Source of the DNA: Clostridia bacterium
GTDB lineage: Bacteria; Bacillota; Clostridia; Oscillospirales; CAG-272
Assembly (NCBI GenBank): GCA_017473865.1
Contig: JAFUJB010000010.1
Coordinates: forward strand, 1-50,233
Direction: 5' to 3'
DNA length: 50,233 nt
The position numbers and the translations under genes are program-made. Every line of letters starts with the position of its first letter. The first letter of the stretch is position 1. Under the pieces are notes generated by a model. That model was not told where the DNA came from. It saw nothing but the letters and a program-made list of their open reading frames with translations, and did no database searches. Below, in pieces: positions 298 to 27,935 of this stretch.

Positions 298-1560
298 TTA
301 AAACAATATTACAATGAATTGCGACACCAATACGACTGCAATTAGTGCAATCGGATAGGTTGCAGCATACGCCGCCGCTACATCCTCTGTTCCAGCAGTT
401 GAAATAAGTGTTCCAAGTGCCGGTGTACTTGTCATACCACCTGTTAATGAGCCAAGATTGTTGAGCAAGCTAAGCTTAATAACATACTTTGCAAAGAAAA
501 ATCCTACAATCATTGGAACAATTGTCATAAATATACCGTATACGAAGTACATCGGGTCAAAGTTTGCAATAAACTCAGCACCGCCGGGAATACCTGCTCC
601 CACAAGGAATAACACAAGTCCAAACTCACGGAAAAGCTTAAGTGTGCTTTGCGACGGCATAATGCTGATATTTCCAATTCTACCAAAATGACCTAAAATC
701 AAGCTTACAAGCAAACAGCCTCCCGTTGTTGTAAGTGAAAAGCACACGCCGTCAAAACCTGCGCTTGAAAGCGGAATTTTAATTTGACCTATGAGCGTAC
801 CCAAAATTGCCGCAAGTGCAAAACCCGCAACACCCATATGGTCAATGGTAAAGAGCTTTCTTTCCTTTGTTTGCTTTTTCTCCTCGGTCTTTATAACAAG
901 CTTTGCTCTTTCCGCGTCCATATCAGCCTTTGTAAGCTTTGGAATAAGCTGAACAAAAAGCACAACACCGATTACGCCGAAAATATAAGCAATACCGTGT
1001 CCAACGGAAACAAGTCCTTGATATTCTGCTGCAACAGTTGCCTTTGCCGCCGAGAATGCGGGAGTCGACGTAAGTGCACCTGAAAGCAATCCTACAATCA
1101 TAGCCACAAAGCCTTCCCTTGTTTCAATCGTTGCACCGTATCCAATCAGATCTCCTACGTAGATACAGCCAACTGCAACAAGCCCGCCTGCCAAAATAAT
1201 TATTGCGCCAAGCAATACGTATGACTTGAAGTTTCTTTTGAAATTACCGAAAAACTTTGGTCCTGCTATATAACCAACTGACGTTACAAACAAGATAAGT
1301 CCCAAGCTTTCAATAATGGAAAAACCGCTTGTAAAATCGTATGCCGCAGAAGAAGCTCTGAAGATCAACTGTCCGCCGTCGTTTACGAAGAAAAACAGTG
1401 CACCAAACAAAAGTGCAATTATAAACACACCCGCATCGCCGAGTGATACTCCCTTAATGGTAATTCTGCCAAGCAGATAGCCTATCATAATAACTGCAAA
1501 ACTTATCAAAAGAAGCGTTGATACATTACTGATAGATATTAATCCGCCCAAAAGTCTCAT
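298..1560 (-). CDS. AspT/YidE-family (AAE) transporter, probable C4-dicarboxylate carrier
   Basis: This 420-residue, very hydrophobic protein has two homologous membrane halves joined by a charged cytoplasmic linker (about residues 205-240, KTEEKKQTKERK). Each half carries the family signature: GALTSTPAFSAA near residue 160 and GGMTSTPALGTL near 380. The AAE family includes the aspartate:alanine antiporter AspT and the succinate exporter SucE of corynebacteria. The regulatory TrkA-C domains found in many AspT proteins are absent. It is the last gene of the operon, 15 bases after the FrdA-like gene. By inference it exports succinate or exchanges it for fumarate or aspartate made or used by the reductase. 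Family call is firm; substrate is inferred from context only. Confidence 0.85.
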   Translation of the reverse strand: MRLLGGLISISNVSTLLLISFAVIMIGYLLGRITIKGVSLGDAGVFIIALLFGALFFFVNDGGQLIFRASSAAYDFTSGFSIIESLGLILFVTSVGYIAGPKFFGNFKRNFKSYVLLGAIIILAGGLVAVGCIYVGDLIGYGATIETREGFVAMIVGLLSGALTSTPAFSAAKATVAAEYQGLVSVGHGIAYIFGVIGVVLFVQLIPKLTKADMDAERAKLVIKTEEKKQTKERKLFTIDHMGVAGFALAAILGTLIGQIKIPLSSAGFDGVCFSLTTTGGCLLVSLILGHFGRIGNISIMPSQSTLKLFREFGLVLFLVGAGIPGGAEFIANFDPMYFVYGIFMTIVPMIVGFFFAKYVIKLSLLNNLGSLTGGMTSTPALGTLISTAGTEDVAAAYAATYPIALIAVVLVSQFIVILF

Positions 1561-1575
1561 ACAAAAACACCTTCC

Positions 1576-3180
1576 TTATATACTTTTTTGAGACGTATAA
1601 TTTGGAAGAAGTTTAGGCGAAACAGCTTCGGTTTCAATCTTTGCTTCTTCTATTTCTTTTTCAAATTTTGCAATATGGTCAAGTGTAAGCTTTGCAACCT
1701 TTGCAGTCTTTGCTTTTGCCGCCGCAGACTGACCTGCAGAGCGTCCAAAAACAATAATATCAAGCAAAGAGTTACCCATAAGTCTATTCTTACCGTGAAT
1801 ACCGCCAACAGCTTCGCCTGCAACAAAGAGGTTTTCAACGTTTGTCGTCATACAGTCGGGAGTAATATCAAGACCGCCGTTCTGATAGTGAAGTGTGGGG
1901 TAGATAAGAATAGGCTCTTTGCGTATATCAATTCCATACTTACCGAACATTCTCATCATTGCGGGAATTCTCGCTTCAATAGTACCCTCTCCGCCAATCT
2001 TTTCGATCATAGGAGTGTCAAGCCATACTGCGAGACCGTTGCCGGTGTCAATGCCGTTACCTCTTTCAAGACATTCGCGGATAACGGACGCCGCGGTAAC
2101 GTCTCTCGTTTCAAGGGGATGCATAAATACTTCGCCGTTCTTGTTTACAAGCTTAGCGCCAAGCGAACGTACTTTTTCAGTTACGAGCGCACCGAAAATC
2201 TGTTCGGGGAACGCAGCGCCGGTAGGATGATACTGCAACGTTTCTGCATAAAGAAGCTTTGCGCCGACCCTGTATCCGAGTACAAGACCGTCCGCCGTCG
2301 CTCCATAGTGGTTAGACGTCGGGAAGCCCTGATAGTGCATACGTCCGGCACCACCGGTTGCAATAATAACTGTCTTTGCCTTTGCAACGTAGAGTTCTTT
2401 TGTTTCCATATTCATAAGAACGGCGCCTGCCGCCTTACCGTTTTCATCAAGAATAAGCTCGATTGCCGCAGTAAAATCAACTACGGGAATTTGGCGGTTA
2501 AGAACTTCGTCGCGTAAAGTTCTCATTATTTCCGCACCCGAATAGTCCTTTGCCGCATGCATTCTCTTTCTTGATGTGCCGCCGCCGTGTGTGGTGATCA
2601 TATTGCCTTCAGCGTCTTTGTCAAACTCAACGCCGAGGTTTGAAAGCCACTGGATAGCTTCGGGAGCGTCGCATACAAGCTTGGAGAGAAGCTCTCTTTT
2701 TGCCGCAAAGTGTCCGCCGCCGAATGCGTCAACAAAGTGAATTGCAGGCGAATCGTTGGGTTTATCAGCCGCCTGGATACCGCCTTCAGCCATCATTGTA
2801 TTTGCGTCTCCGATACGGAGCTTTGTTACGATCATAACATTAGCGCCCGCTTCGTGAGCCTCAATAGCTGCAGAAGAACCTGCGCCGCCGCCACCGATAA
2901 CAAGAACGTCTACGTCATAGTCGACTTTTTCAAGATCAACGGAATCAGCTGTAATTCTGCTGTGAGCCTGAAGCATTTCTGCAAGCTCGTGAGGTACCTT
3001 ATCGCCCTTATTTGCGCCTATTTTGAGTTCGCTGAATTCTTCTTTTTTATAGTCGGGGTGGAATGCCGCAAGCAAGTCTTCTTTTTCTTTTGCAGTCATT
3101 CTGACGGGTTCATAAGCTATATTTTTGTCTCTTGCCGCTTTTACCGCTTCAAGTGATTTTTGAAAGTTCTCAGAATACAT
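1576..3180 (-). CDS. Soluble fumarate reductase-like flavoprotein subunit (FrdA/SdhA family)
   Basis: 534 residues. The FAD dinucleotide motif VIGGGGAGSS is at about 94-103. Residues matching the E. coli FrdA dicarboxylate site are all visible: His318 (QYHPTG), Thr334-Glu335, Arg338, His431 (HYQNGG) and Arg466 (GKNRLMGNSL). The His that binds FAD covalently in membrane FrdA/SdhA is Asn127 here (GDANTMMAEGG), so FAD should be non-covalent. There is an unusual ~85-residue N-terminal extension before the FAD motif, while the C-terminal helical domain of SdhA is largely missing. The loop after Arg338 is SLGA instead of GEGG. It is 17 bases downstream of its Fe-S partner, with a strong GGGGAGGGG ribosome site. 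Fumarate to succinate is likely; another enoate is possible. Confidence 0.85.
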   Translation of the reverse strand: MYSENFQKSLEAVKAARDKNIAYEPVRMTAKEKEDLLAAFHPDYKKEEFSELKIGANKGDKVPHELAEMLQAHSRITADSVDLEKVDYDVDVLVIGGGGAGSSAAIEAHEAGANVMIVTKLRIGDANTMMAEGGIQAADKPNDSPAIHFVDAFGGGHFAAKRELLSKLVCDAPEAIQWLSNLGVEFDKDAEGNMITTHGGGTSRKRMHAAKDYSGAEIMRTLRDEVLNRQIPVVDFTAAIELILDENGKAAGAVLMNMETKELYVAKAKTVIIATGGAGRMHYQGFPTSNHYGATADGLVLGYRVGAKLLYAETLQYHPTGAAFPEQIFGALVTEKVRSLGAKLVNKNGEVFMHPLETRDVTAASVIRECLERGNGIDTGNGLAVWLDTPMIEKIGGEGTIEARIPAMMRMFGKYGIDIRKEPILIYPTLHYQNGGLDITPDCMTTNVENLFVAGEAVGGIHGKNRLMGNSLLDIIVFGRSAGQSAAAKAKTAKVAKLTLDHIAKFEKEIEEAKIETEAVSPKLLPNYTSQKSI

Positions 3181-3197
3181 ATTACTTCCCCTCCCCT

Positions 3198-3872
3198 TTA
3201 TTTCTCAATCTCACGAGTATTGTAAAGCTCTTTCATTTCCTCGATGGGCTTCTGCATAAGAGCTTCAATGAGTTCTTTGAAATCGCCGTTTTTAATCTCT
3301 TTTACACGGTCATTCAAATGACCGCATCCGGGTGCAAGGTATTTGCCGTTAATTCTTCTTGCAAGCATTGCAACCTGAGGATGAGAGATACCTGCGGGGC
3401 ATCTTGACGAGCATACGCCGCACATTACGCAGTCAAACGACTCTTCAGCACACTTCTCAAAATCGCCGCGCTGAGCGTATGCTATGTACTGCATAACGTT
3501 GAGCTCCTGAGTACAGCTCTTTGTACAAGCATTACAGCCTATGCAAGAGTAGATCTCCGGATAAAGCTGCATCATAACAGCCTCTGTGGTAGGGATTTTT
3601 TCAATATCATATCCCTGTTTTACCAACGGGAAGAAAGGCAGAGTTGCAATATACATATTGTCCTCAACCTTTGTCTGACAAGCGAGGCACGCCTTAAGCT
3701 CGCGGTCGCCCTTTATACGATAAATGGTAGCGCAAGCTCCGCAGAAGCCGTTACGGCATCCGCAGCCGCGTACAAGCTGATATCCCGCATATTCCATCGC
3801 GGTCATAATCGTCAGATTTTCGGGAACAGAATACTTCTTCCCGAAAAGAAATATATTAACCATATTTTCCAT
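3198..3872 (-). CDS. Fe-S electron-transfer subunit of the fumarate reductase-like enzyme (FrdB/HdrC-like)
   Basis: 224 residues. An N-terminal plant-type [2Fe-2S] domain has Cys37, 39, 44, 47, 62 and 65. It is followed by two complete CxxCxxCxxxC motifs at 110-120 and 148-158. Ordinary FrdB/SdhB has one [3Fe-4S] motif with a missing Cys; here both look like [4Fe-4S], as in HdrC or thiol:fumarate reductase TfrB. A C-terminal CCG domain like that of TfrB is absent, and no membrane-anchor subunit is encoded. I chose the Met at 3872 because AAAGGAGAA lies just before it; the frame stays open to 3992 but overlaps flxA without a ribosome site. It probably moves electrons from the Flx-Hdr proteins to the flavoprotein. 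Confidence 0.85.
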   Translation of the reverse strand: MENMVNIFLFGKKYSVPENLTIMTAMEYAGYQLVRGCGCRNGFCGACATIYRIKGDRELKACLACQTKVEDNMYIATLPFFPLVKQGYDIEKIPTTEAVMMQLYPEIYSCIGCNACTKSCTQELNVMQYIAYAQRGDFEKCAEESFDCVMCGVCSSRCPAGISHPQVAMLARRINGKYLAPGCGHLNDRVKEIKNGDFKELIEALMQKPIEEMKELYNTREIEK

Positions 3873-3885
3873 ATCAGTTTCTCCT

Positions 3886-4722
3886 TTAATACTCGTCGGG
3901 AAGTTCCCCAAGTTCGTCATAACGGAATACAGGACCGTCTTTGCATACGTATTTTGAACCGATGTTGCAACGGCCGCATTTTCCGACACCACACTTCATA
4001 CGCAATTCCATCGTTGTGTATATCTGTGTGTCTTTAAATCCAAGCTCTTTAAGAGCCGCTACCGTAAACTTAATCATAATCGGAGGTCCGCACACGATAG
4101 CAACACGGTCTGGCGTATACTTAAGTTCTTTTACGTAGTTGGGAACGAAACCAACGTGTTTCACCCAGTCGGGATCTTCCTTGTCAACGGTCAGGTAAAC
4201 GTACATTTCCTTGTCCTTCGCCCACTCGTTGATTATCTCGTTATAGTTAACAAGGTCATCCATACTTCTTGAGCCGTAAACCAAGTTGATACTCTTATAA
4301 TCATCTCTGTAATAACGGCAATAGTTGATTACCGAACGGAGAGGAGCGATACCGATACCGCCCGCGATGAACAAAAGTTTTTTGCCCTTAAATTCATCTG
4401 AATCAACAGGAAATGCGTTTCCGTAAGGACCGCGGATTGTAATCTGCTGACCAACCTCTGCCTGATGGAGCCACTCTGTAACGCAACCGCACTTCTTTAT
4501 GGAAAATTCCATATATTCGGTGTTTGTGGGGGATGATGTAATCGAGAACATTGCCTCGCCTACACCGGGGATGGAAAGCATAGCGCACTGTCCGGGCATA
4601 TGTTCAAAAGCTTTCTTTCCGTCGGGAGTTACCACTCTGAACGTCTTTATGTCGGCTGTGTCTATTCTAACATCGGTAATAACACCGACTTTAGGGATAA
4701 GGGTTTCATTTGTGTTATTCAT
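3886..4722 (-). CDS. flxA: FlxA: FAD/NAD(P)-binding electron-input subunit (AsrB/HydG-like)
   Basis: 278 residues. An N-terminal ferredoxin-reductase FAD barrel (MFSITSSP near 58-65) is followed by an NAD-binding domain (GGIGIAPLRS near 121-130) and a C-terminal [2Fe-2S] site (CGVGKCGRC and a fourth Cys before KDGPVF). This is the architecture of anaerobic sulfite reductase subunit B and of FlxA in FlxABCD-HdrABC, where it oxidises NADH. The start overlaps the end of the preceding gene by eight bases and follows a good GGGAGGTAAGG site. A sulfite reductase is unlikely because no siroheme subunit (AsrC) is present and Hdr genes are adjacent. Confidence 0.85.
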   Translation of the reverse strand: MNNTNETLIPKVGVITDVRIDTADIKTFRVVTPDGKKAFEHMPGQCAMLSIPGVGEAMFSITSSPTNTEYMEFSIKKCGCVTEWLHQAEVGQQITIRGPYGNAFPVDSDEFKGKKLLFIAGGIGIAPLRSVINYCRYYRDDYKSINLVYGSRSMDDLVNYNEIINEWAKDKEMYVYLTVDKEDPDWVKHVGFVPNYVKELKYTPDRVAIVCGPPIMIKFTVAALKELGFKDTQIYTTMELRMKCGVGKCGRCNIGSKYVCKDGPVFRYDELGELPDEY

Positions 4723-5743
4723 TTTCCTTACCTCCCAATTTTTTCATTACTTTTACTATATTCATTGATATTGGGCATCTTGATACACACCTGCCGCAAC
4801 CTACGCAACCGAATATACCGTCATTATTTTCCGGATAGTATACCAACTTGTGCATAAATCTCTGACGAAAACGTTCTTTCTGGCTGTTTCTGTTGTTTCC
4901 GTGAGCCATTCTGGTAAATTCAGAATACATACATGAATCCCAACATCTGTATCTGATTATTCCCTTGCCCGTGTTAAAATCTTTTATGTCATAGCACTGG
5001 CAGGTAGGACATACGAAAGTACACGTTCCGCAACCGAGGCAGGTTTCGGAAAGCTCATCCCACTCGGGAGCTTTAAAGAAATCATCAGTTTTTCCGCCGC
5101 CGAATTTGCTTGTGTCAAGGTCGGCAAGAGGAAGCTTTTTCATTATCTTTGAAATCTGTTCTTTCTGCTCTTTTACTTTTTCATCGTTAGCTTCTTCGGT
5201 TAATCCTTCAATCATCTTAAGAAGCTTTTCACCTTTTTCGGTGTTGGACTGCATAAAGAGTTCATCTTCTGTCTTCCATACCGATACGTCAGCTTTAGGC
5301 TCTGCGGGATCAATGCCGAAAGCAGAACAGAAACAGGTCTCGCTCGGTCTTGTACAAGCAACCGAAACAATTATACCGTGCTCACGCTTTGTAGCATAGT
5401 AGCTGTCTCTCGGGTCTACCAAGAATACTCTGTCAAGTATATCAAAAGCCTTTACATCGCAAGCTCTTACACCGAAAACAACAAAATCTTCCGAAACCTT
5501 TCGTGTGTCGATAACTTCAACGTTTTTGCCCTCGACCTTGAACTCCATCATATCTTCTGTCTGAGGGAAGAAAAAGTCCTTAGGGCTTTTTACCGTATTA
5601 AGAGCATTGCTCCACTTTTTGCCCTCTTCCCATTTCGTATATGCGGCTTTGCCGTCATTTTGGTCAACAGGAAGATAAAGGGACATATTGTTTGCTATCT
5701 CTGCAAACATCAAGTCAATTTTCTGTAAAGAAATCTTACGCAT
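4715..5743 (-). CDS. flxB: FlxB-type 4Fe-4S protein (AsrA-like)
   Basis: 342 residues from the Met at 5743, which follows GGGGGGAC and overlaps the preceding gene by eight bases. The N-terminal two thirds resemble AsrA/4Fe-4S dicluster proteins (VFGVRACDVKAFDILD, then a Cys-rich T-R-P-S-E-T-C-F-C stretch). Two ferredoxin motifs lie near the C-terminus: CLGCGTCTFVCP near 235 and CVGCGRCVSRCP near 317. These would carry electrons between FlxA and the MvhD-like/HdrA entry point. The frame is open further upstream but without a ribosome site. It is paralogous in plan to the next gene upstream; which is FlxB and which FlxC is assigned only by mirror order with the known gene cluster. Confidence 0.8.
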   Translation of the reverse strand: MRKISLQKIDLMFAEIANNMSLYLPVDQNDGKAAYTKWEEGKKWSNALNTVKSPKDFFFPQTEDMMEFKVEGKNVEVIDTRKVSEDFVVFGVRACDVKAFDILDRVFLVDPRDSYYATKREHGIIVSVACTRPSETCFCSAFGIDPAEPKADVSVWKTEDELFMQSNTEKGEKLLKMIEGLTEEANDEKVKEQKEQISKIMKKLPLADLDTSKFGGGKTDDFFKAPEWDELSETCLGCGTCTFVCPTCQCYDIKDFNTGKGIIRYRCWDSCMYSEFTRMAHGNNRNSQKERFRQRFMHKLVYYPENNDGIFGCVGCGRCVSRCPISMNIVKVMKKLGGKENE

Positions 5744-6761
5744 CTTCGTCCCCCCTGTCAAAAACTTCGCCGGGTTCAATATCGCTTGTAGTATAGTTAA
5801 CCAGAGGTGCTCTTGAACCAACCTCTGCACCCGCCTGATAGTCTCCGTAAAACTCGTTCATATCCTTGATGAACTTTCTGTTCAAAAGGTGAAGAGGTAT
5901 GTTCTGAGGACATACTCTTGAACATTCGCCGCAGTCGGTACATCTGCCGGCTACGTGATATGCTCTTATAATATGGAACAGTTTTTCTTCAAAGCTGTTT
6001 GCGGGAGATTTATTTTCAACGCCTGATTTGGGGTTGTCGAATACGCACTTTTCGCAGGTACAAGCGGGACAAGCATCTCTGCAAGCATTACATCTTATAC
6101 ACTTTGAAAGTTCATTCTGCCAGAAAGCAAATCTTTCATCGGCAGTCATTTTTTCCAATTTTTCTACTTCATCAAAACGGTTTGAATCGATTACTTCACC
6201 CGTTTCTCCGAGCAATTCGTCGTATGCAACGTGTTTCTTACTCTTGCAGTTCACGCATCTTTCAGCAAGTACGTCTGCCTTTGCAATAGTCATATCATCG
6301 TTATAAAGCGTCTTCACAATGATATCTTCACCGCTGCAGTCAACCGACAAAATACCGTCGCCCGCAATTTTCTTTACCTTTTCGATATCAATCATACCGT
6401 CGCACTGAACGCCTACTGCATATACACTTTCTCTGTCAAGTCTGTGCTCGGTGAGAAGCTGATTAAAGCTGTATGTATCGCAAGGTTTGAGGAAAACAAG
6501 TATCTTTTTTTCAGGGTTAAGGAAGACAAGTGCCTGACCGTGTACCTTTTCAGTTCTCTTTATAAGATATTTGGAAAGGTTTGCCGCAGAAAAATCGTTG
6601 TATATAAATTCATTCTTTACTTCTTCAACGCTTTTGAATTCTGCGGGAGATACGTCATAGTCGCATTCGCCTTTTTTCCAACCGAGAACCGTAGATACCG
6701 TACCGTTGGTAAGCAGTTCAGTCGCTTTTTCGATAAGCATTTCACTCGTTATCTTTTGCAT
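5736..6761 (-). CDS. flxC: FlxC-type 4Fe-4S dicluster protein (AsrA/FrhB-like)
   Basis: 341 residues. The N-terminal domain (FLKPCDTYSFNQLL, VYAVGVQCDGM) resembles the FrhB/AsrA group. A Cys pair CVNCKS is near 189. Two dense ferredoxin motifs follow: CIRCNACRDACPACTCEKC near 221-239 and CTDCGECSRVCPQN near 275. It overlaps the MvhD-like gene by 13 bases and starts after TTGGAGGACC. It should be a second electron-relay subunit of the Flx complex. Substrate-binding residues for F420 are not evident, so an F420 role is not claimed. Confidence 0.8.
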   Translation of the reverse strand: MQKITSEMLIEKATELLTNGTVSTVLGWKKGECDYDVSPAEFKSVEEVKNEFIYNDFSAANLSKYLIKRTEKVHGQALVFLNPEKKILVFLKPCDTYSFNQLLTEHRLDRESVYAVGVQCDGMIDIEKVKKIAGDGILSVDCSGEDIIVKTLYNDDMTIAKADVLAERCVNCKSKKHVAYDELLGETGEVIDSNRFDEVEKLEKMTADERFAFWQNELSKCIRCNACRDACPACTCEKCVFDNPKSGVENKSPANSFEEKLFHIIRAYHVAGRCTDCGECSRVCPQNIPLHLLNRKFIKDMNEFYGDYQAGAEVGSRAPLVNYTTSDIEPGEVFDRGDEDA

Positions 6762-7183
6762 CTCAGGTCCTCCAATCTCTTGTTTTCGCCTAAAGCGGCT
6801 ACTTTTTCAACAAAGTCGTTCATCGTTGCCGCAAACTTCGCGCCTTCAGCCGCAGATACCCATTCAACACGGGTACGTTCTTTTTCAATGCCCAGATAGT
6901 CGAGCATTGAGAATAAAGCAGCCATACGTCTTCTCGTATAGTAGTTACCCGACGTGTAGTGGCAGTCGCCGGGATGGCAACCGCATATTATTACGCCGTC
7001 AGCGCCCCTCTGGAATGCTCTGAGAATAAACATAGGGTTTACTCTGCACGAGCAAGGAACTCTGATTATTTTTACTTCAGCGGGATAGTTAAGTCTGTTG
7101 TTACCTGCAAGGTCTGCGCCCGCATAAGAACACCAGTTACAGCAAAATGCTACGATTAAAGGCTTATATTCATTCATTTGCAT
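6749..7183 (-). CDS. flxD: FlxD: MvhD-type [2Fe-2S] adaptor to HdrA
   Basis: 144 residues, a single MvhD/FlxD domain with its Cys ligands in FCCNWCSYAGAD, PCSCRVNP and GCHPGDCHY. In known complexes this subunit docks on HdrA and delivers electrons from the oxidising module to the bifurcating flavin. The start at 7183 is preferred because GGAGGT sits nine bases upstream; a second Met at 7177 is possible. The gene overlaps the hdrA stop by ten bases, which suggests translational coupling and tight stoichiometry with HdrA. Confidence 0.88.
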   Translation of the reverse strand: MQMNEYKPLIVAFCCNWCSYAGADLAGNNRLNYPAEVKIIRVPCSCRVNPMFILRAFQRGADGVIICGCHPGDCHYTSGNYYTRRRMAALFSMLDYLGIEKERTRVEWVSAAEGAKFAATMNDFVEKVAALGENKRLEDLRCKR

Positions 7184-9168
7184 ATCGCGTCTACCTCCGC
7201 CATAATTTGTGTATTCATAAATCCGTTCAAGTCCATAGCTCCCGAAGGACAAGCGACCGTACAAGCGCCGCATCCCTGACATACTGCAGGATTTACAACG
7301 GCTACTCTTCTTGTCTTAACGGTTCTGTTGGGACCGGGGAATTCTTTGTCTTCATAGCTGATAGCACCGTAAGGACATACTCTTTCACAGCTTGAACAGC
7401 CGTTACACATAAGCTGATTTGAGCTTGCAACACAAGGGTTACCCATAAGCTTATTCTTCTGAAGCAGTCCGATAACTTTAGAAGCTGCCGCGCCTGCCTG
7501 AGAAACTGTTTCGGGAATATCCTTGGGGCCCTGACAGGTTCCGGAAAGAAATACGCCTGCCGTAGGACTTTCAACGGGACGAAGCTTGGGATGAGCTTCG
7601 GTAAAGAAGTCGTTTGTATCCATACTTGCAGTAAGCATTGTCGCTAACGGTCTTGCCGACTTGTCGGGTTCAATTGCCGCCGCAAGAACAACTAAGTCTG
7701 CATCAATATTTATCTGCTTATTTGCAATAAGGTCTGACGCGCGTACCTTAAGCTTGTCGCCCTCGGGTGTAATCTTTCCGACCATACCCTTAACGTAGTT
7801 TACTCCGTATTCTTCGACGGCTCTTCTCTGGAACTCGTCAAAGTTCTTACCGGGTGTTCTTACGTCTATGTAGAATACCGTTACTTCTGTATCGGGATAC
7901 TTATCTCTTGTAAGCATAGCATGTTTTGCCGTGTACATACAGCATATCTTCGAACAATATTCCTTGCCCTTTTCAGCGCAAGCCGAGCAACGCGAGCCAA
8001 CACACTGTACAAATACTATCTTTTGAGGATGCTTACCGTCGGAAGGACGAAGCAGCTTACCTGCAGTAGGTCCTGCCGCGTTTGTAAGTCTTTCAAATTC
8101 AAGAGAAGTAATTACGTCTTTTGACTGACTGTAAGCAAACTCATCGAACTTATCCATCGAAATAGGCTCAAATCCCGTCGCAACAACGATAGCGCCGTAC
8201 TTTTCTTCAATAATTTCGTCTTTCTGCTTATAGTCGATAGCACCCGCCGCACAGAATTTTGAACATACTCCGCACTTGCCGTTTTTGAGCATATTACAGT
8301 AATCGGGGTCAATAGTTGCAACCTTCGGTACTGCCTGCGCGAAAGGAATGTATATCGCGCGTCTGTTGTCCATACCCAAGTTAAATTCGTTGGGAACTTT
8401 TTTCTGAGGACACTTTTCGATACAAGCTCCGCAACCCGTACATTTCGTTTCGTCAACAAAACGTGCTCTCTTTTTAATCTTTACGTTGAAATTACCGACA
8501 AAGCCTTTAACTTCTTCAACGTCGCTATACGAGAATATTCTTATATTTTCGTTCTGAGCAACGTCAACCATCTTAGGTGTAAGAATACAAGCCGCACAGT
8601 CAAGCGTCGGGAAAGTCTTGTCGAGCTGAGCCATCTTACCGCCGATGGTCGCCTTTTTTTCAACTATGTCAACGGGAAATCCCGCGTCGGCAATATCAAG
8701 AGCTGTCTGAATACCCGCAATACCGCCGCCGATAACCAACGCTCTCTTTGTTACGGGCGATTCACCGGGAGTCAAAGGAGTATTAAGACTTACCTTTGCA
8801 ACCGCCGCCTTGCCGAGTATAATTGCTTTTTCAGTACCCAAAGGCATTTCTTTATGTACCCATGAGCACTGCTCACGGATGTTTGCAATTTCAACCATAT
8901 AGGGATTAAGCCCTGCCGCAGAAGCGGTCTTACGGAAGGTCGCCTCGTGCATACGGGGCGAGCACGAGCATACTACAATGCCCGTCAGGTTGTGTTCTTT
9001 TACGGCATTCTTGATCAGATCCTGACCTGCCTGCGAACACATATACTGATAGTCGGTGGAAAAGACAACGCCGGGCTCCGACTTCAAAGCCTCTGCAACG
9101 ACTTTTACGTCAACAGTTCCTGCAATATTGCTTCCGCACCAGCATACGAATACGCCAATTCTTTGCAT
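7174..9168 (-). CDS. hdrA: HdrA: FAD-containing flavin-bifurcating subunit
   Basis: 664 residues, normal length. The N-terminal HdrA Cys region (VCWCGSN, VVCSCSPRMHE) is followed by the FAD motif VIGGGIAGIQTALDIADAG near 145-163, inserted ferredoxin motifs (CTGCGACIEKCPQ and CGVCSKFCAAG), and two C-terminal motifs (CNGCSSCERVCPYG, CQGCGACTVACPSG). HdrA is the site of flavin-based electron bifurcation in heterodisulfide reductases, with ferredoxin as low-potential acceptor. It starts 15 bases after hdrC with TAAAGGAGG upstream. The Flx genes directly downstream suggest NADH as donor rather than H2 or formate. Confidence 0.93.
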   Translation of the reverse strand: MQRIGVFVCWCGSNIAGTVDVKVVAEALKSEPGVVFSTDYQYMCSQAGQDLIKNAVKEHNLTGIVVCSCSPRMHEATFRKTASAAGLNPYMVEIANIREQCSWVHKEMPLGTEKAIILGKAAVAKVSLNTPLTPGESPVTKRALVIGGGIAGIQTALDIADAGFPVDIVEKKATIGGKMAQLDKTFPTLDCAACILTPKMVDVAQNENIRIFSYSDVEEVKGFVGNFNVKIKKRARFVDETKCTGCGACIEKCPQKKVPNEFNLGMDNRRAIYIPFAQAVPKVATIDPDYCNMLKNGKCGVCSKFCAAGAIDYKQKDEIIEEKYGAIVVATGFEPISMDKFDEFAYSQSKDVITSLEFERLTNAAGPTAGKLLRPSDGKHPQKIVFVQCVGSRCSACAEKGKEYCSKICCMYTAKHAMLTRDKYPDTEVTVFYIDVRTPGKNFDEFQRRAVEEYGVNYVKGMVGKITPEGDKLKVRASDLIANKQINIDADLVVLAAAIEPDKSARPLATMLTASMDTNDFFTEAHPKLRPVESPTAGVFLSGTCQGPKDIPETVSQAGAAASKVIGLLQKNKLMGNPCVASSNQLMCNGCSSCERVCPYGAISYEDKEFPGPNRTVKTRRVAVVNPAVCQGCGACTVACPSGAMDLNGFMNTQIMAEVDAICK

Positions 9169-9183
9169 TATTCTTTTCCTCCT

Positions 9184-9570
9184 TTATTTCGTGTATTTTC
9201 TGAAAGCGCTGACTATTGCCTGCTGAGGCATATCTTCATCAAGAAGAGCGGGTACGTCATCAGCTTTCAAGTGATTGTTGTTTTGTTTTCTTATTACCGA
9301 AAGGCGAACCGCCTCAACAAGTTTTGCGGGTTCAACGCCTCTCGGGCATCTGTCGATACAAGCGAAGCAGGACAGACATTTGTAGAGAGACTCAGACTTA
9401 AGCAAAGGCTCTATATCCCCCGACTCTACCATGTATACAAACTGATGCGGATGATATTCCATTTCGTCAAATGAAGGACAAGTTGCAGTACACTTTCCGC
9501 ACTTCATACACTTTTTTGGATTGACTCCGCTCATACGGATAATTTCTTCTTTCAAATATTTGTTATCCAT
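9184..9570 (-). CDS. hdrC: HdrC: 2x[4Fe-4S] subunit
   Basis: 128 residues with two ferredoxin motifs, CMKCGKCTATCP near 17-28 and CLSCFACIDRCPRG near 65-78, the complete HdrC plan. It links HdrA to HdrB. I chose the Met at 9570 because AAAGGAG is then eight bases away; the Met at 9576 would leave only one base of spacing. It overlaps hdrB by eight bases. Confidence 0.9.
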   Translation of the reverse strand: MDNKYLKEEIIRMSGVNPKKCMKCGKCTATCPSFDEMEYHPHQFVYMVESGDIEPLLKSESLYKCLSCFACIDRCPRGVEPAKLVEAVRLSVIRKQNNNHLKADDVPALLDEDMPQQAIVSAFRKYTK

Positions 9571-10351
9571 CTGCATTCTCCTTTACCCCGAGCGCTTCAG
9601 CCAACAGCTCGGTAAAGTATACTACGGGAATATCCGCGCCGTTTTTCACAAGATTGTATTTACAAAGAGGACACGCGGTTATTATCATTTCAGCGCCCAT
9701 CGCTTTTGCATTTCTCACTATATCGTTGCTTCTTATTTTTGCAGCTTCAGGACTTTCAAGAGCTATGTAACCGCCGCAACATTCGTTTCTGTTGGCGTAT
9801 ATTACGGGGTCTCCCCCCATAGCCGAGATAAGATCTTCCATAATTCTCGGATTTTCGGGATCGTCCATCTTCATAACCGAATTAGGTCTAAGCAAAAGGC
9901 AGCCGTAATAAGCCGCAATTTTCTTACCCTGAAGAGAGTTGACAACCTTTTCTTTTACCTTATCAAATCCAATAGTATCACGCAAAAGCTCAAGATAGTG
10001 GTATACCTCCGTCTCTCCGTTATACGCATCTTCTGCCATATATCTGTTTACCTTATCGGCAAATTCTTTATCATTTTGCATAGCATAGTTAGTCTGCTTA
10101 ATAACGTTATGACAACCCGAGCACACGGTAACGAGCGGCTGGTCTTTTTTCATTGCCGCTTTGAGTGCTCTTACAGAAGACAGCTTGCTTGCGACCTCAT
10201 TTTTCGCCGTAACAAACACGCCTCCGCAACACTGCCATTCCTCTATTTCTTCCAACGTTATGCCCAATACTTCCGCGCACTTATATGAATATCTGTCAAG
10301 CTCTTTCGCCTTATTCTTCAGTGTGCAACCGGGAAAATAACTGACCTTCAT
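9563..10351 (-). CDS. hdrB: HdrB: CCG-domain catalytic subunit
   Basis: 262 residues with two full cysteine-rich (CCG) motifs: Cys9...Cys41-Cys42...CSGC (77-80), and a second set with YYGC, NECCGG and TACPLC. These bind the noncubane [4Fe-4S] clusters that reduce disulfides in HdrB. Both motifs are intact, so HdrB may still reduce a thiol/disulfide partner, or may only pass electrons on. It is the first gene of the operon, with AGGAGGG seven bases before the start. A dedicated disulfide partner such as DsrC is not encoded nearby. Confidence 0.9.
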   Translation of the reverse strand: MKVSYFPGCTLKNKAKELDRYSYKCAEVLGITLEEIEEWQCCGGVFVTAKNEVASKLSSVRALKAAMKKDQPLVTVCSGCHNVIKQTNYAMQNDKEFADKVNRYMAEDAYNGETEVYHYLELLRDTIGFDKVKEKVVNSLQGKKIAAYYGCLLLRPNSVMKMDDPENPRIMEDLISAMGGDPVIYANRNECCGGYIALESPEAAKIRSNDIVRNAKAMGAEMIITACPLCKYNLVKNGADIPVVYFTELLAEALGVKENADG

Positions 10352-17633: not shown

Positions 17634-17950
17634 TAATATCACCTTTCCTTTTTGATGAGGATAAATTATTACGTATTTTGTGTTGTGTATTCAGTCATTT
17701 TTTGCAATAAACACACGTTTTTATCAACAAAATATATGCGATAAAACAATATTAATCTTAAAGATATTTACACACTGTAATAGTATCACAAAAATACAAA
17801 AAGCACAATACTTTTTCTCAAAAAAAAACTACATTTTTTTGCCTTTTTTACTTGTTGATAAATCAATAGAAAACGCGGTAATACGGTGATTTTCTTGAGT
17901 TTTTTGTTATGCTTGTCCATTTAACTTTTTTCATTCGCAAAATATAGCAG
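17634..17950. other. AT-rich intergenic region upstream of the adhesin
   Basis: This stretch is very AT-rich with long A and T runs. It must carry the adhesin promoter on the minus strand, but I found no TTGNNN/TANNNT pair with good spacing. I see no gene or RNA structure in it. Confidence 0.5.
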
Positions 17951-23758: not shown

Positions 23759-25561
23759 TTAGTCTCTGAAAGCTTCTCTTGCAGCATACGTTGTATGGAG
23801 CAATTCGTGAGCCTTGTGAGAGTTGGGTTCGCCGAGGAACTTCTCATAGAGAGCCTTGATCTGAGGATTGTTGTGGCTCTGTCTGAGAGTCTGTCTTTCA
23901 TCTTCGGAATAGAGAGCTGCAGCACGCTTAGCCTTGAAAGTATCAACGATATCAGCATCTTCATTAGGAAGGAACTGAGGCTTGATGTAAGGCTGACCGC
24001 CGCCTGCGATACAACCGCCGGGACAACCCATAATTTCGATAAATGCATACTTGCTCTTGCCTGCTCTGATATCATCGAGGAGAACCTTAGCGTTCTTCAT
24101 ACCGTGAGCAACAGCAACCCAGATTTCAGTGCCGTTAACTTCGACCATAGCTTCTTTGATGCCGTCGAATCCACGAACAGCTTCGAACTTAACGCCTTCG
24201 TGTTCTTTACCTGTAAGAACGTAGTAAGCAGTTCTGAGAGCTGCTTCCATAACGCCTCCGGTAACACCGAAGATTACGCCAGCGCCCGTGTAGTCGCCTA
24301 CAACGTCGTTATCAAATTCTTCGTCGGGAAGCTTGTTGAAGTTAATGCCCGAACGCTTGATAAGCTTTGCAAGTTCTCTTGTTGTAAGAACTGCGTCAAC
24401 GTCCTTAATGCCGTCCTTCTGGAGCTGTTCTCTTTCCTTTTCGCCCTTCTTAGCTGTACAAGGCATAATGGAAACAACAAACATATCCTTAGGATCGATG
24501 CCGTTTGCTTCTGCATAGTAGCTCTTAAGAATTGCGCCGAACATTTCGTGAGGAGACTTACAAGATGAGAGATGACCGAGAAGATCGCCGTAGTTAATTT
24601 CAGCGTAGTTGATCCAACCGGGCGAGCAAGAAGTGATCATAGGAAGCTGACCGCCGTTCTTGATTCTGCCGAGAAGCTCTGTAGCTTCTTCCATAATTGT
24701 AAGGTCAGCAGCATAGTTTGTATCAAACACCTTCTTGAATCCGAGACGTCTGAGAGCAGCAACCATCTTGCCTGTGCAAGCAGTACCGACTTTCATACCG
24801 AACTCTTCGCCGAGAGCAGCTCTTACTGCGGGAGCGGTCTGAACAACAACGTACTTGCCTTCAGCCATAGCCTTGTCAACGAGAGCGATTTCGCTCTTTT
24901 CCATCAATGCGCCCGTAGGACATACGCTTACGCACTGTCCGCAGAGGATACAAGGAGAGTTAGCAAACGAACGGTTTTCAGCGGGAGCAACAATTGTATT
25001 GAAGCCTCTCTTTTCAAAACCGAGAACGCCCTTGCCGTGAGCATTCTTACATCTTTCAACGCAACGACCGCAGAGTACGCACTTAGATGTGTCTCTTACG
25101 ATAGAAGGTGTGAGCTGGTCAATAGTTACAGGAGTCATCGAACCCTTGAACATATCTTCTCTTGCGCCCGTTACTTTTGCAGCGTAGAGGAGTTCGCAGT
25201 ATTCGTTCTTATCGCACTGCTGGCACTTCATAGAGTGGTTGGAAAGCAAAAGTTCAACAGATGCTCTTCTTGCGGAAACAGCCTTGGGAGAAGAGATAAT
25301 AACCTTCATATCGGGTGTAATGGGGTATACGCAAGATGCAACGAGACGCTGAGGTCCGTAAGCGATCTCACCCTTATCATTTCTTCTGCCTTCCTGAATT
25401 TCTACAAGACATACACGGCAAGAACCTTTGGAGCATTCGCCGTGGTTATAAGCGCAGAGTGTGGGGATATCGTAGCCGCAAGCCTTTGCAGCTTCGAGTA
25501 CAGTCGTTCCTGCCTCTACCTGGTAGGAAACGCCTTCAATAAAAATATTAATCAATGCCAT
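23759..25561 (-). CDS. hydA: [FeFe] hydrogenase catalytic subunit HydA/HndD, NADH-linked (group A)
   Basis: 600 residues. N-terminal [2Fe-2S] domain (Cys36, 43/48, 51, 77), His-Cys3 [4Fe-4S] (HSMKCQQCDKNEYC near 109-122), two ferredoxin clusters (near 161-171 and 204-214), then the H-cluster domain: TSCSPGW at 310-316, MPCTAKK at 366-372 and GCPGGCIAGGGQP at 512-524. The first motif has Ser where TSCCPxW hydrogenases have a second Cys; as I recall this is usual in the NADH-linked group. It produces H2 from reduced ferredoxin plus NADH, or bifurcates in reverse. Last gene of the hydC-hydB-hydA operon, 14 bases after hydB. Confidence 0.95.
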   Translation of the reverse strand: MALINIFIEGVSYQVEAGTTVLEAAKACGYDIPTLCAYNHGECSKGSCRVCLVEIQEGRRNDKGEIAYGPQRLVASCVYPITPDMKVIISSPKAVSARRASVELLLSNHSMKCQQCDKNEYCELLYAAKVTGAREDMFKGSMTPVTIDQLTPSIVRDTSKCVLCGRCVERCKNAHGKGVLGFEKRGFNTIVAPAENRSFANSPCILCGQCVSVCPTGALMEKSEIALVDKAMAEGKYVVVQTAPAVRAALGEEFGMKVGTACTGKMVAALRRLGFKKVFDTNYAADLTIMEEATELLGRIKNGGQLPMITSCSPGWINYAEINYGDLLGHLSSCKSPHEMFGAILKSYYAEANGIDPKDMFVVSIMPCTAKKGEKEREQLQKDGIKDVDAVLTTRELAKLIKRSGINFNKLPDEEFDNDVVGDYTGAGVIFGVTGGVMEAALRTAYYVLTGKEHEGVKFEAVRGFDGIKEAMVEVNGTEIWVAVAHGMKNAKVLLDDIRAGKSKYAFIEIMGCPGGCIAGGGQPYIKPQFLPNEDADIVDTFKAKRAAALYSEDERQTLRQSHNNPQIKALYEKFLGEPNSHKAHELLHTTYAAREAFRD

Positions 25562-25575
25562 CTTTCATTTCCCCC

Positions 25576-27447
25576 TTATTTCTTTTCGATTGCCTTGAAC
25601 TTACAAGAAGATACGCACATACCGCACTTAATGCACTTATCCTGATCGATAACGTAGGGTTCTTTACCTACAACGCCTGTGATAGCGTTTACAGGACACT
25701 GACGTGCACAGAGTGAGCACTTCTTACACTTGTCAGGATCGATTACATATTTCATAAGATTCTTACATACTTTTGCGGGGCACTTCTTGTCAACTACGTG
25801 AGCGACATATTCATCTCTGAAGGAGCGAAGTGTGGAGAGAACGGGGTTAGCCGCTGTCTGACCGAGAGCGCAGAGAGAACCGATCTTGATGGTTTCGCTG
25901 AGTTCTTCGAGTTCTTCGAGGTCCTTCATTGTTGCCTTACCGTCAGTAATCTTGTTAAGGAGTTCGAGCAAACGCTTTGTACCGATACGGCAGGGTGAAC
26001 ACTTACCGCAAGATTCGTCGCAGATAAATTCCATATAGAATTTTGCAACGTCAACCATACAGTTGTCTTCGTCCATAACGATAGCACCGCCGGAGCCCAT
26101 CATTGAGCCCTTCGCAACGAGAGTATCAAAATCAATTGCAGAATCAAGGTCTTTTTCTGTCAAGCAGCCGCCTGAAGGACCGCCTGTCTGAATAGCCTTG
26201 AACTTCTTACCGTCGGGAATACCGCCGCCGATATCATAAATGAGTTCGCGGAGTGTTGTACCCATAGGAATTTCAACGAGACCAACGTTGTTGATCTTAC
26301 CGCCCAATGCGAATACCTTTGTACCCTTGGACTTTTCAGTACCGTACTTGCCGAACTTTTCAGCGCCTTCACGGAGTATGTAAGGAACGCAAGCGAGCGT
26401 TTCAACGTTGTTAACGATTGTGGGGCAGCCCCAAAGACCTTTAACTGCAGGGAACGGAGGACGGGGTCTGGGCATACCTCTCTGACCTTCAATAGAGTTA
26501 AGGAGAGCAGTTTCTTCACCGCAAACGAACGCACCTGCGCCAAGTCTGATATGTACGCGGAAGCTGAAATCAGTTCCGAGAATGTTGTCGCCGAGGAGTC
26601 CGATCTCTTCTGCCTGCTTAATAGCGATCTTAAGTCTCTTAACTGCAATGGGATATTCAGCACGAACGTAGAAATAGCCGTTCTGAGCGCCGATTGCATA
26701 ACCTGCGATTGCCATACCTTCGATAACTGCAAGGGGGTTACCTTCGAGAATCGAACGGTCCATAAATGCACCGGGGTCGCCTTCGTCGCCGTTACATACA
26801 ACGTACTTTTCACCGTCGGGCTGAGCGTAAGCGAAGTTCCACTTCATACCGGTGGGGAAGCCGCCGCCGCCACGTCCGCGGAGACCTGATGCGAGAACGT
26901 TATCAATAACAGCTTTTCTATCCATCTTAAGAGCGTTTGCAAGACCAATGAATGCGCCCGAACCGAGTGCTTCTTCAATGTTTTCAGGGTCAATAGCGCC
27001 GCAACCGTGGAGAGAAATACGTACTTGCTTCTTGTAGAATTCGATATCATCCTGCTTTGCGATCTTTTCCTGTGTCTTGGGATCAACGTAAAGCAATCTT
27101 TCGATGATCTCGCCGCCGATAAGGTCTTTTTCAACGATTTCTTCTACGTCATCGATCGTTACGAGTCTGTAAAGAGTATCTTCAGGGTAAATCTTTACGA
27201 AAGGACCCTGTGAGCAGAAGCCGAAACAACCAACCTGGTTAACTGTAACCTTGTCGGAAAGTCCTCTTTCTTCTACGAGTTTTTCAAATTTAGCCTTTAT
27301 TTCGAGAGAGTTCGAGGAGATACAGCCTGTACCGCCGCAAAGAACTACAGCTCTTTTACCACTTCCGCCTTCAATCTTCTTGCCGTAAGCATCTGCGCAT
27401 ACAGCACATTTCGCGGAAAGCTCTTCAAAATTCTTAATCTTTTCCAT
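25576..27447 (-). CDS. hydB: Bifurcating hydrogenase NuoF-like flavoprotein subunit HydB/HndC
   Basis: 623 residues. An N-terminal thioredoxin-like [2Fe-2S] domain (LCGGTGCISS near 37-46), the NuoF FMN/NADH core (GRGGGGFPTGMKW near 196-208 and GDEGDPGAFMDRS near 221-233), a [4Fe-4S] motif ESCGKCSPCRIGTKR near 485, and two C-terminal ferredoxin motifs (CKKCSLCARQCP, CIKCGMCVSSC). This is the NADH- and flavin-containing bifurcation subunit. It lies five bases after the NuoE-like gene, so the operon encodes the three-subunit form. Confidence 0.95.
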   Translation of the reverse strand: MEKIKNFEELSAKCAVCADAYGKKIEGGSGKRAVVLCGGTGCISSNSLEIKAKFEKLVEERGLSDKVTVNQVGCFGFCSQGPFVKIYPEDTLYRLVTIDDVEEIVEKDLIGGEIIERLLYVDPKTQEKIAKQDDIEFYKKQVRISLHGCGAIDPENIEEALGSGAFIGLANALKMDRKAVIDNVLASGLRGRGGGGFPTGMKWNFAYAQPDGEKYVVCNGDEGDPGAFMDRSILEGNPLAVIEGMAIAGYAIGAQNGYFYVRAEYPIAVKRLKIAIKQAEEIGLLGDNILGTDFSFRVHIRLGAGAFVCGEETALLNSIEGQRGMPRPRPPFPAVKGLWGCPTIVNNVETLACVPYILREGAEKFGKYGTEKSKGTKVFALGGKINNVGLVEIPMGTTLRELIYDIGGGIPDGKKFKAIQTGGPSGGCLTEKDLDSAIDFDTLVAKGSMMGSGGAIVMDEDNCMVDVAKFYMEFICDESCGKCSPCRIGTKRLLELLNKITDGKATMKDLEELEELSETIKIGSLCALGQTAANPVLSTLRSFRDEYVAHVVDKKCPAKVCKNLMKYVIDPDKCKKCSLCARQCPVNAITGVVGKEPYVIDQDKCIKCGMCVSSCKFKAIEKK

Positions 27448-27452
27448 AATCC

Positions 27453-27935
27453 TTATGCCTCCATCTTGCGATATTCTTCAACAATTCCGGGAACATCGGA
27501 TACCTTGAGCTTGGGATATACCTTACCGTTGATTGTTACAGCGGGAGCGATACCGCAAGCGCCGATGCAACGGAGAGCATCAAGTGTGAACAAGCCGTCT
27601 TCTGTTGTTCCGCCGGGAGCTATTCCCAAAAGTTCGGAGAACTTGTCTATGATCTGCTGTGCTCCTTTTACGTAGCAAGCCGTACCAAGACATACGCCGA
27701 CAACATACTTTCCCTTCGGTTGAAGCGAGAAGAAAGAATAGAATGTAACTACGCCGTAAATTTCTGCAACCGAAATTCCGGTTCTTTCTGATACGATTTC
27801 CTGTACTTCAAGCGGAATATAACCATATTCTTCCTGAATTGCAGACAAAATCATCATCAAGGGTGTTTTTTCCTCAACGTATCTGTCGCAGATCTCGTTG
27901 ATTTTAGCAACTGCCGATTCCTGTAAATGGGCCAT
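27453..27935 (-). CDS. hydC: NuoE-like [2Fe-2S] subunit HydC/HndA
   Basis: 160 residues, thioredoxin-like NuoE fold with four Cys: GVCLGTACYVKGA near 87-99 and CIGACGIAP near 128-136. It is the small electron-transfer subunit that pairs with the NuoF-like protein. First gene of the operon, preceded by AAAAGGAGGG and by a strong promoter. No HndB homologue is present. Confidence 0.93.
   Translation of the reverse strand: MAHLQESAVAKINEICDRYVEEKTPLMMILSAIQEEYGYIPLEVQEIVSERTGISVAEIYGVVTFYSFFSLQPKGKYVVGVCLGTACYVKGAQQIIDKFSELLGIAPGGTTEDGLFTLDALRCIGACGIAPAVTINGKVYPKLKVSDVPGIVEEYRKMEA

Follow-up and report, generated by a model that had tools for sequence, protein, structure and literature searches.

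The question raised by this locus is which acceptor is served when the genes of an Hdr-Flx electron-bifurcating module stand in one operon with a fumarate reductase-like pair (frdBA) and a carrier. The operon lies in the window (the whole stretch of 50,233 nucleotides that was analysed), which is one of the 21 contigs of a Clostridia genome of 1.31 Mb (70% complete). Ten genes, recognised from the open reading frame (ORF) list and family profiles, are on the minus strand and are read from 10351 to 298 in the order hdrB-hdrC-hdrA-flxD-flxC-flxB-flxA-frdB-frdA-carrier. They probably encode a soluble complex that would reduce fumarate with reduced nicotinamide adenine dinucleotide (NADH) and would also reduce ferredoxin. 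The directly observed basis of this reading is gene content and order, cofactor and substrate residues, and the fumarate-pathway neighbours of relatives. The genes are given from the front of the operon (FAD, flavin adenine dinucleotide; FeS, iron-sulfur).

9563..10351, minus strand: hdrB, subunit with a CCG domain, for which two non-cubane 4Fe-4S sites are predicted (PF02754, 84 bits).
9184..9576, minus strand: hdrC, two 4Fe-4S clusters (TIGR03290, 64 bits, cut-off 160).
7174..9168, minus strand: hdrA, subunit with FAD and FeS clusters where electrons presumably bifurcate and leave to ferredoxin (NF040770).
6749..7183, minus strand: flxD (MvhD/FlpD; PF02662, 187.8 bits; longer ORF to 7282).
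5736..6761, minus strand: flxC, FeS subunit (Fer4 families; sits between flxD and flxB in relatives).
4715..5743, minus strand: flxB, FeS subunit (PF17179, 105.5 bits; longer ORF to 5830).
3886..4722, minus strand: flxA, diaphorase subunit with FAD- and NAD-binding domains, through which NADH electrons presumably enter (PF00175, PF00970, PF10418).
3198..3872, minus strand: frdB-like gene, 2Fe-2S and two 4Fe-4S motifs, no CCG domain (longer ORF to 3992).
1576..3180, minus strand: frdA-like flavoprotein gene (PF00890, 228.7 bits; TfrA model, 347.3 bits, cut-off 718).
298..1560, minus strand: short carrier of the AAE superfamily, presumably for succinate exit or dicarboxylate antiport (PF06826, 176.7 bits).

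The starts of flxD, flxB and frdB were refined from ribosome-binding sites and neighbouring genes (about 7183, 5743 and 3872), and junction lengths were counted by hand from the refined starts. Overlaps are found at hdrB/hdrC (14 bases), hdrA/flxD (10), flxD/flxC (13), flxC/flxB (8) and flxB/flxA (8); gaps are found at hdrC/hdrA (15), flxA/frdB (13), frdB/frdA (17) and frdA/carrier (15). Every junction is an overlap of at most 14 bases or a gap of at most 17, and the compact one-strand set of ten genes described in an earlier note on this DNA is borne out, the strand being minus. All seven subunits of HdrABC-FlxABCD are encoded together.

Linkage was examined in two sets. The class sample comprises 291 genomes, host included; an FrdB search found 40 of them, and 39 regions were fetched from genomes other than the host. 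The second set, from a contig scan, comprises the best 80 of at least 484 relatives (among at least 594 pattern matches). The 119 loci of both sets correspond to 113 distinct ones, among which near kin weigh heavily. In all 113, frdB is in one block with flx genes; the order flxA-frdB-frdA is found in 111 (the contig of L083 ends after frdB; L071 has the reversed order, with frdBA ahead of hdr-flx), and the nine-gene order is complete in 86, a conservation that exceeds chance. Rarity of frdBA beside flx-hdr genes, named in the earlier note as the outcome that would count against their coupling, was not observed in the class or in the closest loci: frdB adjoins flx or hdr genes in 39/39 class regions and in all of the best 80 of at least 484 relatives. 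In a phylum sample of 398 genomes, FrdB was found at E 1e-30 in 39, host included; the 38 others are all outside the class, and only 5/38 of their loci have hdr and flxB-type genes. FlpD (the FlxD family) is found in 45/291 class genomes and FrdB in 40/291, 39 being shared. FrdB without FlpD is found in G071, whose contig ends in flxC. Among six genomes with FlpD only, one (G032) has the same cluster, truncated where its contig ends, and the remaining five have other Hdr types: HdrA and FlpD without Flx (G022), or Flx with a long HdrA, no HdrB being found (four genomes). The closest named relatives by FrdB, among the best 80 of at least 484, are metagenome-assembled genomes of Oscillospiraceae and Clostridia, many from ruminants.

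FrdB (224 amino acids) has 12 cluster cysteines in 40/40 rows, window included. The 2Fe-2S/4Fe-4S subunit of the earlier note is confirmed, with two full 4Fe-4S motifs, not the classical 3Fe-4S pattern (TIGR00384, 28.6 bits, cut-off 88), and without the CCG half of TfrB (TfrB model, 37.2 bits, cut-off 385). Classical FrdB/SdhB identity is excluded by the missing 3Fe-4S pattern and the profile score below cut-off. TfrAB identity is excluded by the missing C-terminal CCG domain and by the TfrA and TfrB cut-offs, both missed.

FrdA scores highest with TfrA (347.3 bits), followed by FrdA/SdhA (281) and NadB (274.5). About 87 residues precede its FAD domain, and its alignment with longer relatives stops around residue 514 of 534, without reaching their C-terminal region. 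Site residues were placed by alignment with Escherichia coli FrdA (1kf6), whose residues have known roles, in 76 rows (L066 and L207 gave none, their contigs ending). H318, E335, R359, H431 and R466 are kept in 76/76 rows and T334 in 75/76 (one T to S). FrdA belongs to the FrdA/SdhA superfamily by its FAD-binding fold and its substrate-site His, Thr-Glu, Arg, His and Arg; it lacks the covalent FAD on His of the quinol-linked types, the His position being Asn in 76/76 rows. Loss of covalent FAD fits one-way fumarate reduction.

HdrB scores 154.5 bits with TIGR03288 (cut-off 345) and has both CCG halves. Its ten cluster cysteines are kept in 31/31 class rows and 20/20 phylum-set rows (window row included in each set, shorter rows left out). 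HdrC keeps 8 Cys in 31/31 rows. HdrA scores 782.7 bits with NF040770 (cut-off 1100) over positions 1-641 of 777 of the profile, and its ferredoxin-type cysteines (243-253, 291-306, 588-598, 630-640) are kept in 32/32 rows. Hdr scores well under the NCBIfam cut-offs for methanogen HdrA/B/C are as would be expected of a bacterial branch. FlxB scores 183.6 bits with sulfhydrogenase beta ShyB (cut-off 690), and a solved relative of FlxA is sulfhydrogenase gamma (9nez_C, 191.3 bits). In a structure search with FrdA, HdrB, FlxA, FlxC and FrdB, solved relatives of the first four occur only in other enzymes.

Neighbours of the operon in relatives were counted by tblastn in distinct loci with enough flanking sequence; FumC, class I fumarase alpha, phosphoenolpyruvate carboxykinase (PEPCK) and Rex are named from the profile match of one example each. 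FumC (class II fumarase) is upstream in 65/83 loci and a gene of the lactate/malate dehydrogenase (LDH/MDH) family in 59/83. Class I fumarase is downstream in 11/90 and PEPCK in 2/90; Rex is upstream in 16/83 and downstream in 10/90. Any fumarase is found within 4 kb in 61 of the 69 distinct loci with both flanks. DsrC is over cut-off in 0/291 class genomes, with three weak matches, one of them inside a 526-amino-acid ORF of the FrdB-bearing genome G179; a DsrC-type disulfide as acceptor was rejected on this count. The Sdh_cyt anchor, the only anchor family searched, is likewise over cut-off in 0/291; none of its seven weak matches is in an FrdB-bearing genome. A membrane anchor was rejected on this count, other anchor families being outside the search.

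Fumarate is the likely high-potential acceptor, as the earlier note proposed: in its favour are the kept Frd site residues, the fumarase and MDH-like neighbours, and the absence of DsrC and Sdh_cyt over cut-off. For the electron route, bifurcation, transport and direction, we infer the following scheme. Electrons of NADH would enter at FlxA, pass through FlxB, FlxC and FlxD to the FAD of HdrA and bifurcate there. The low-potential branch would leave through HdrA to ferredoxin; the high-potential branch would run from HdrC to HdrB, FrdB and FrdA, where fumarate would be reduced to succinate on non-covalent FAD. Succinate would be released by the carrier, possibly in exchange for another dicarboxylate. 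HdrB is the likely direct feeder of FrdB because FrdB lacks the CCG half of TfrB, because TfrB of methanogens holds the same parts fused (the TfrB profile maps piecewise to FrdB (19-92), HdrC (133-222) and HdrB (262-487)), and because hdrC-hdrB-frdB is found without hdrA or flx nearby in 5/38 phylum loci (frdA follows in four; L207 is cut). A further precedent is SdhE, a CCG protein that serves a succinate/fumarate enzyme: its profile scores only slightly lower with HdrB than the HdrB profile itself. With ferredoxin at -500 to -420 mV, about -33 to -49 kJ per mol of fumarate remain by standard energetics once the cost of reducing ferredoxin is deducted. The other potentials used (-320 and +33 mV) are from PMC5861303.

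Several results weigh against fumarate-linked bifurcation. HdrB retains every one of its non-cubane cysteines, which would be expected of a disulfide reductase, and the structure search gave no solved relative that covers the full length of FrdB. The one example examined of the MDH-like gene in relatives' operons scores best as L-lactate dehydrogenase; its active-site loop has Arg where LDH has Gln, which we take to mark a malate enzyme. In the host genome, 70% complete, neither fumarase class, nor ATP-PEPCK, nor RnfC over cut-off was found, and one MDH/LDH-family gene is 66% identical to the operon type. The window contains none of the relatives' neighbour genes and no FumC or FumA-type match. 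The absent genes may lie in the missing 30% of the host, or fumarate may be supplied externally. No Rex-like site precedes the operon (two 3-mismatch sites in 50 kb, below chance, neither in the promoter). Outside the class, no hdr or flx gene is near frdBA in 17/38 loci (of which L198, L208 and L229 have less than 2.6 kb of upstream sequence), which argues for an FrdBA independent of bifurcation.

Fumarate could be reached by the same route without bifurcation, in a plain soluble NADH:fumarate reductase with Hdr-Flx as a mere wire. With fumarate as the sole acceptor of the NADH electrons, the reaction is strongly downhill (-68 kJ/mol), and the hdrC-hdrB-frdB-frdA units without nearby hdrA suggest that FrdBA works without the bifurcating subunit. 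This is nevertheless unlikely, since the HdrA ferredoxin-type cysteines are kept in every row and a whole bifurcating module would be retained for no use. The two intact cluster sites of HdrB and the TfrA-like score of FrdA would also suit coupling through a small molecule, Hdr-Flx reducing a cellular disulfide and FrdBA oxidising the dithiol as a thiol:fumarate reductase; but FrdB has no CCG domain, so that FrdBA alone has no known thiol site, and the class genomes have no DsrC over cut-off, which makes this very unlikely.

Reversal of the complex, with succinate oxidised by confurcation with reduced ferredoxin, is highly improbable. The hdr-free locus L203 groups frdBA with fumarase and succinyl-CoA-synthetase-like genes (the latter by eye), but the position of the covalent-FAD His is Asn, and FumC, PEPCK and the carrier are the neighbours of the flx-linked form. 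A role of FrdA as L-aspartate oxidase, or in the reduction of a different unsaturated acid, is scarcely credible: the NadB score, the site residues that NadB shares with FrdA, and the MmgE/PrpD- or PrpF-like genes (by eye) beside the divergent FrdBA of L229, L230 and L233 are set against the FrdB partner, the nearby fumarase in 61/69 loci and the higher TfrA and FrdA/SdhA scores.

The usual teaching places fumarate reduction at the membrane and links it to menaquinol. In 8-methylmenaquinol:fumarate reductase, membrane-bound and quinol-linked unlike the window set, the HdrB-like SdhE serves SdhAB (window HdrB with SdhE, NF042965: 149.8 bits, cut-off 500). With methanogen TfrAB, FrdA matches TfrA best, and FrdB, HdrC and HdrB each match part of TfrB; the CCG half is fused in TfrB, whereas it is a separate protein, HdrB, in the window. 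Desulfovibrio FlxABCD-HdrABC has the same seven subunit names as the window. Its partner is DsrC according to excerpts of PMC10504309, whereas the window set has frdBA attached.

The earlier note knew of no described example with the full gene set; this does not hold. A 'succinate operon' of Pseudoclostridium thermosuccinogenes, as described in excerpts of PMC7282089 (where Koendjbiharie and van Kranenburg, Preprints 2019, is cited), adds to its seven Flx-Hdr genes a pair for fumarate reductase and one for a putative transporter of succinate. It is about 4-fold up under CO2 limitation, and coupling of fumarate and ferredoxin reduction was already proposed for it. Its listed order (hdr-flx, frd, transporter) is that of the window, the likeness being by description and not by sequence; it has a fumarase at the front, which the window operon lacks. 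In tubeworm symbionts and Thioflavicoccus, tfrAB is interspersed with flxABCD-hdrABC, and direct electron delivery from Hdr-Flx to thiol-fumarate reductase was proposed for the symbionts (excerpts of PMC6315080 and PMC11636981). By those descriptions, these genes are in a reductive tricarboxylic acid cluster with korABCD, unlike those of the window, and are named TfrAB, whereas the window FrdB lacks the CCG half. The window operon is one more member of a kind already known as a proposal. Additional here seem to be the strict linkage in the sampled Clostridia, an FrdB that is not a TfrB and a modular hdrCB-frdBA unit. No purified Frd-Hdr-Flx complex or biochemical proof was found in the literature searched, most subscription journals being outside the search.

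If the proposed NADH:fumarate/ferredoxin reductase is real, Clostridia without an Sdh_cyt anchor over cut-off could dispose of electrons on fumarate and still conserve energy, in the form of low-potential ferredoxin. Succinate and H2 formation would then be assigned differently in metagenomes of the rumen and hindgut, whose copies of these genes may carry a heterodisulfide reductase annotation, and frdB is common (40/291 class genomes, host included, and 38 further genomes of the phylum sample).

More tentatively, FrdBA with the HdrB/HdrC adaptor might be an output module that plugs into several electron inputs in Bacillota. These would be Flx, with NADH as donor and with the genes in either of two opposite orders; HdrA-MvhD where FlxA and FlxB are missing; HdrBC by itself; and, judging from one locus, perhaps NrfH-like cytochromes. 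The Flx-docked form of the module in gut Clostridia might then be a common quinone-free fumarate respiration with energy banked as reduced ferredoxin and H2. The phylum loci were sorted by nearby genes, not by the rest of the genomes. The five with hdr and flx have flxD, flxC and flxB; four have frdBA first, the fetched stretch stopping at flxB or in flxA, and L222 has frdBA last, with flxA seen. In another 11/38, HdrA and FlxD are joined by a weak flxC-like match, no FlxA or FlxB being found (L215 and L226 are cut at the 5' end). Among hdr-free loci, frdBA is beside a fumarase and a malic-enzyme-like gene in L199 (scanned) and in L196, L205, L206 and L218 (by look), and beside pyruvate carboxylase in L223 (scanned) and in L227 and L228 (by look). 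An NrfH-like cytochrome (74 bits, below cut-off) is next to frdBA in L225. In a quick FrdA tree (n=76), the loci with frdBA first make up a single clade (SH-aLRT 99), separate from the main flx-linked group; L222 is apart again, and some hdr-free rows adjoin that main group.

Among the clusters with HdrA, FlxD and frdBA that lack FlxA and FlxB (L211, L213-L217, L219-L221, L224, L226), many also carry hdrC-hdrB together with another long HdrA. Ahead of frdB, L211 has a 382-amino-acid protein without NCBIfam family. L203 has an RnfC-like dicluster protein (below cut-off) next to FrdBA, and L203 and L225 hold membrane and redox genes; their FrdBA are perhaps quinol-linked or succinate-oxidising forms. 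The divergent branch of L229, L230 and L233 may use another unsaturated acid as substrate.

The carrier has two duplicated membrane halves: PF06826 and TIGR01625 (duplication domain, 117.9 bits, over cut-off 71.95) match two stretches each. A simple hydropathy scan gives 11 hydrophobic segments, and no RCK match was found at E 0.001 in its 420 amino acids. The 'AspT/SucE-type' label of the earlier note holds at superfamily level and fails for the full-length type, with RCK missing and all three full-length carrier cut-offs missed (AspT, 121.2 of 546.95 bits). The carrier is in the block in 66/90 distinct loci with more than 1.5 kb downstream. In 6/24 carrier-free distinct loci (L045, L101, L116, L130, L131, L149), a membrane-like protein of a 113-amino-acid class, with no confident family, is encoded within 200 bases after frdA. 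Among distinct loci it is never joined by the carrier within that distance; it also occurs in a few loci that do have the carrier (L035/L076, L090, L092), there 1-3 kb further along. It may be an unrecognised succinate carrier. In L070, the carrier position after frdA is taken by an anion carrier of the DASS family, which differs from AAE.

Other features of the window are the following.

23759..27935, minus strand: NADH-linked [FeFe] hydrogenase cluster (HydA, NuoF-like, NuoE-like), outside the operon.
10677-17642, minus strand: surface protein of 2321 amino acids, streptococcal pilin isopeptide-linkage domains, LPXTG-like end by eye.
10493-10465, minus strand: sigma-70-like promoter with extended -10 (TTGATT-17-TATAAT), ending 113 bases before hdrB.
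273-249, minus strand: terminator-like hairpin, 10 bp and T-rich tail, after the carrier.

The [FeFe] hydrogenase, 13 kb from the operon, is a candidate H2 outlet for reduced ferredoxin and NADH. HydA scores 814.4 bits with group A6 (NF040763, cut-off 765), a family named NADH-dependent; use of ferredoxin by it is putative. The front promoter and end hairpin of the earlier note were both located; each alone is weak evidence, because such matches also turn up in shuffles (promoter-like, 20 found vs 18.1 in shuffles; terminator-like, 14 vs 9.5, standard deviation 3.5). Rex control of the window operon was rejected, both 3-mismatch sites falling outside the promoter. A terminator-looking hairpin seen by eye after the pilin-repeat gene is absent from the program scan output. 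This gene, unrelated to the operon, is directly upstream of it, where many relatives have fumC and mdh.

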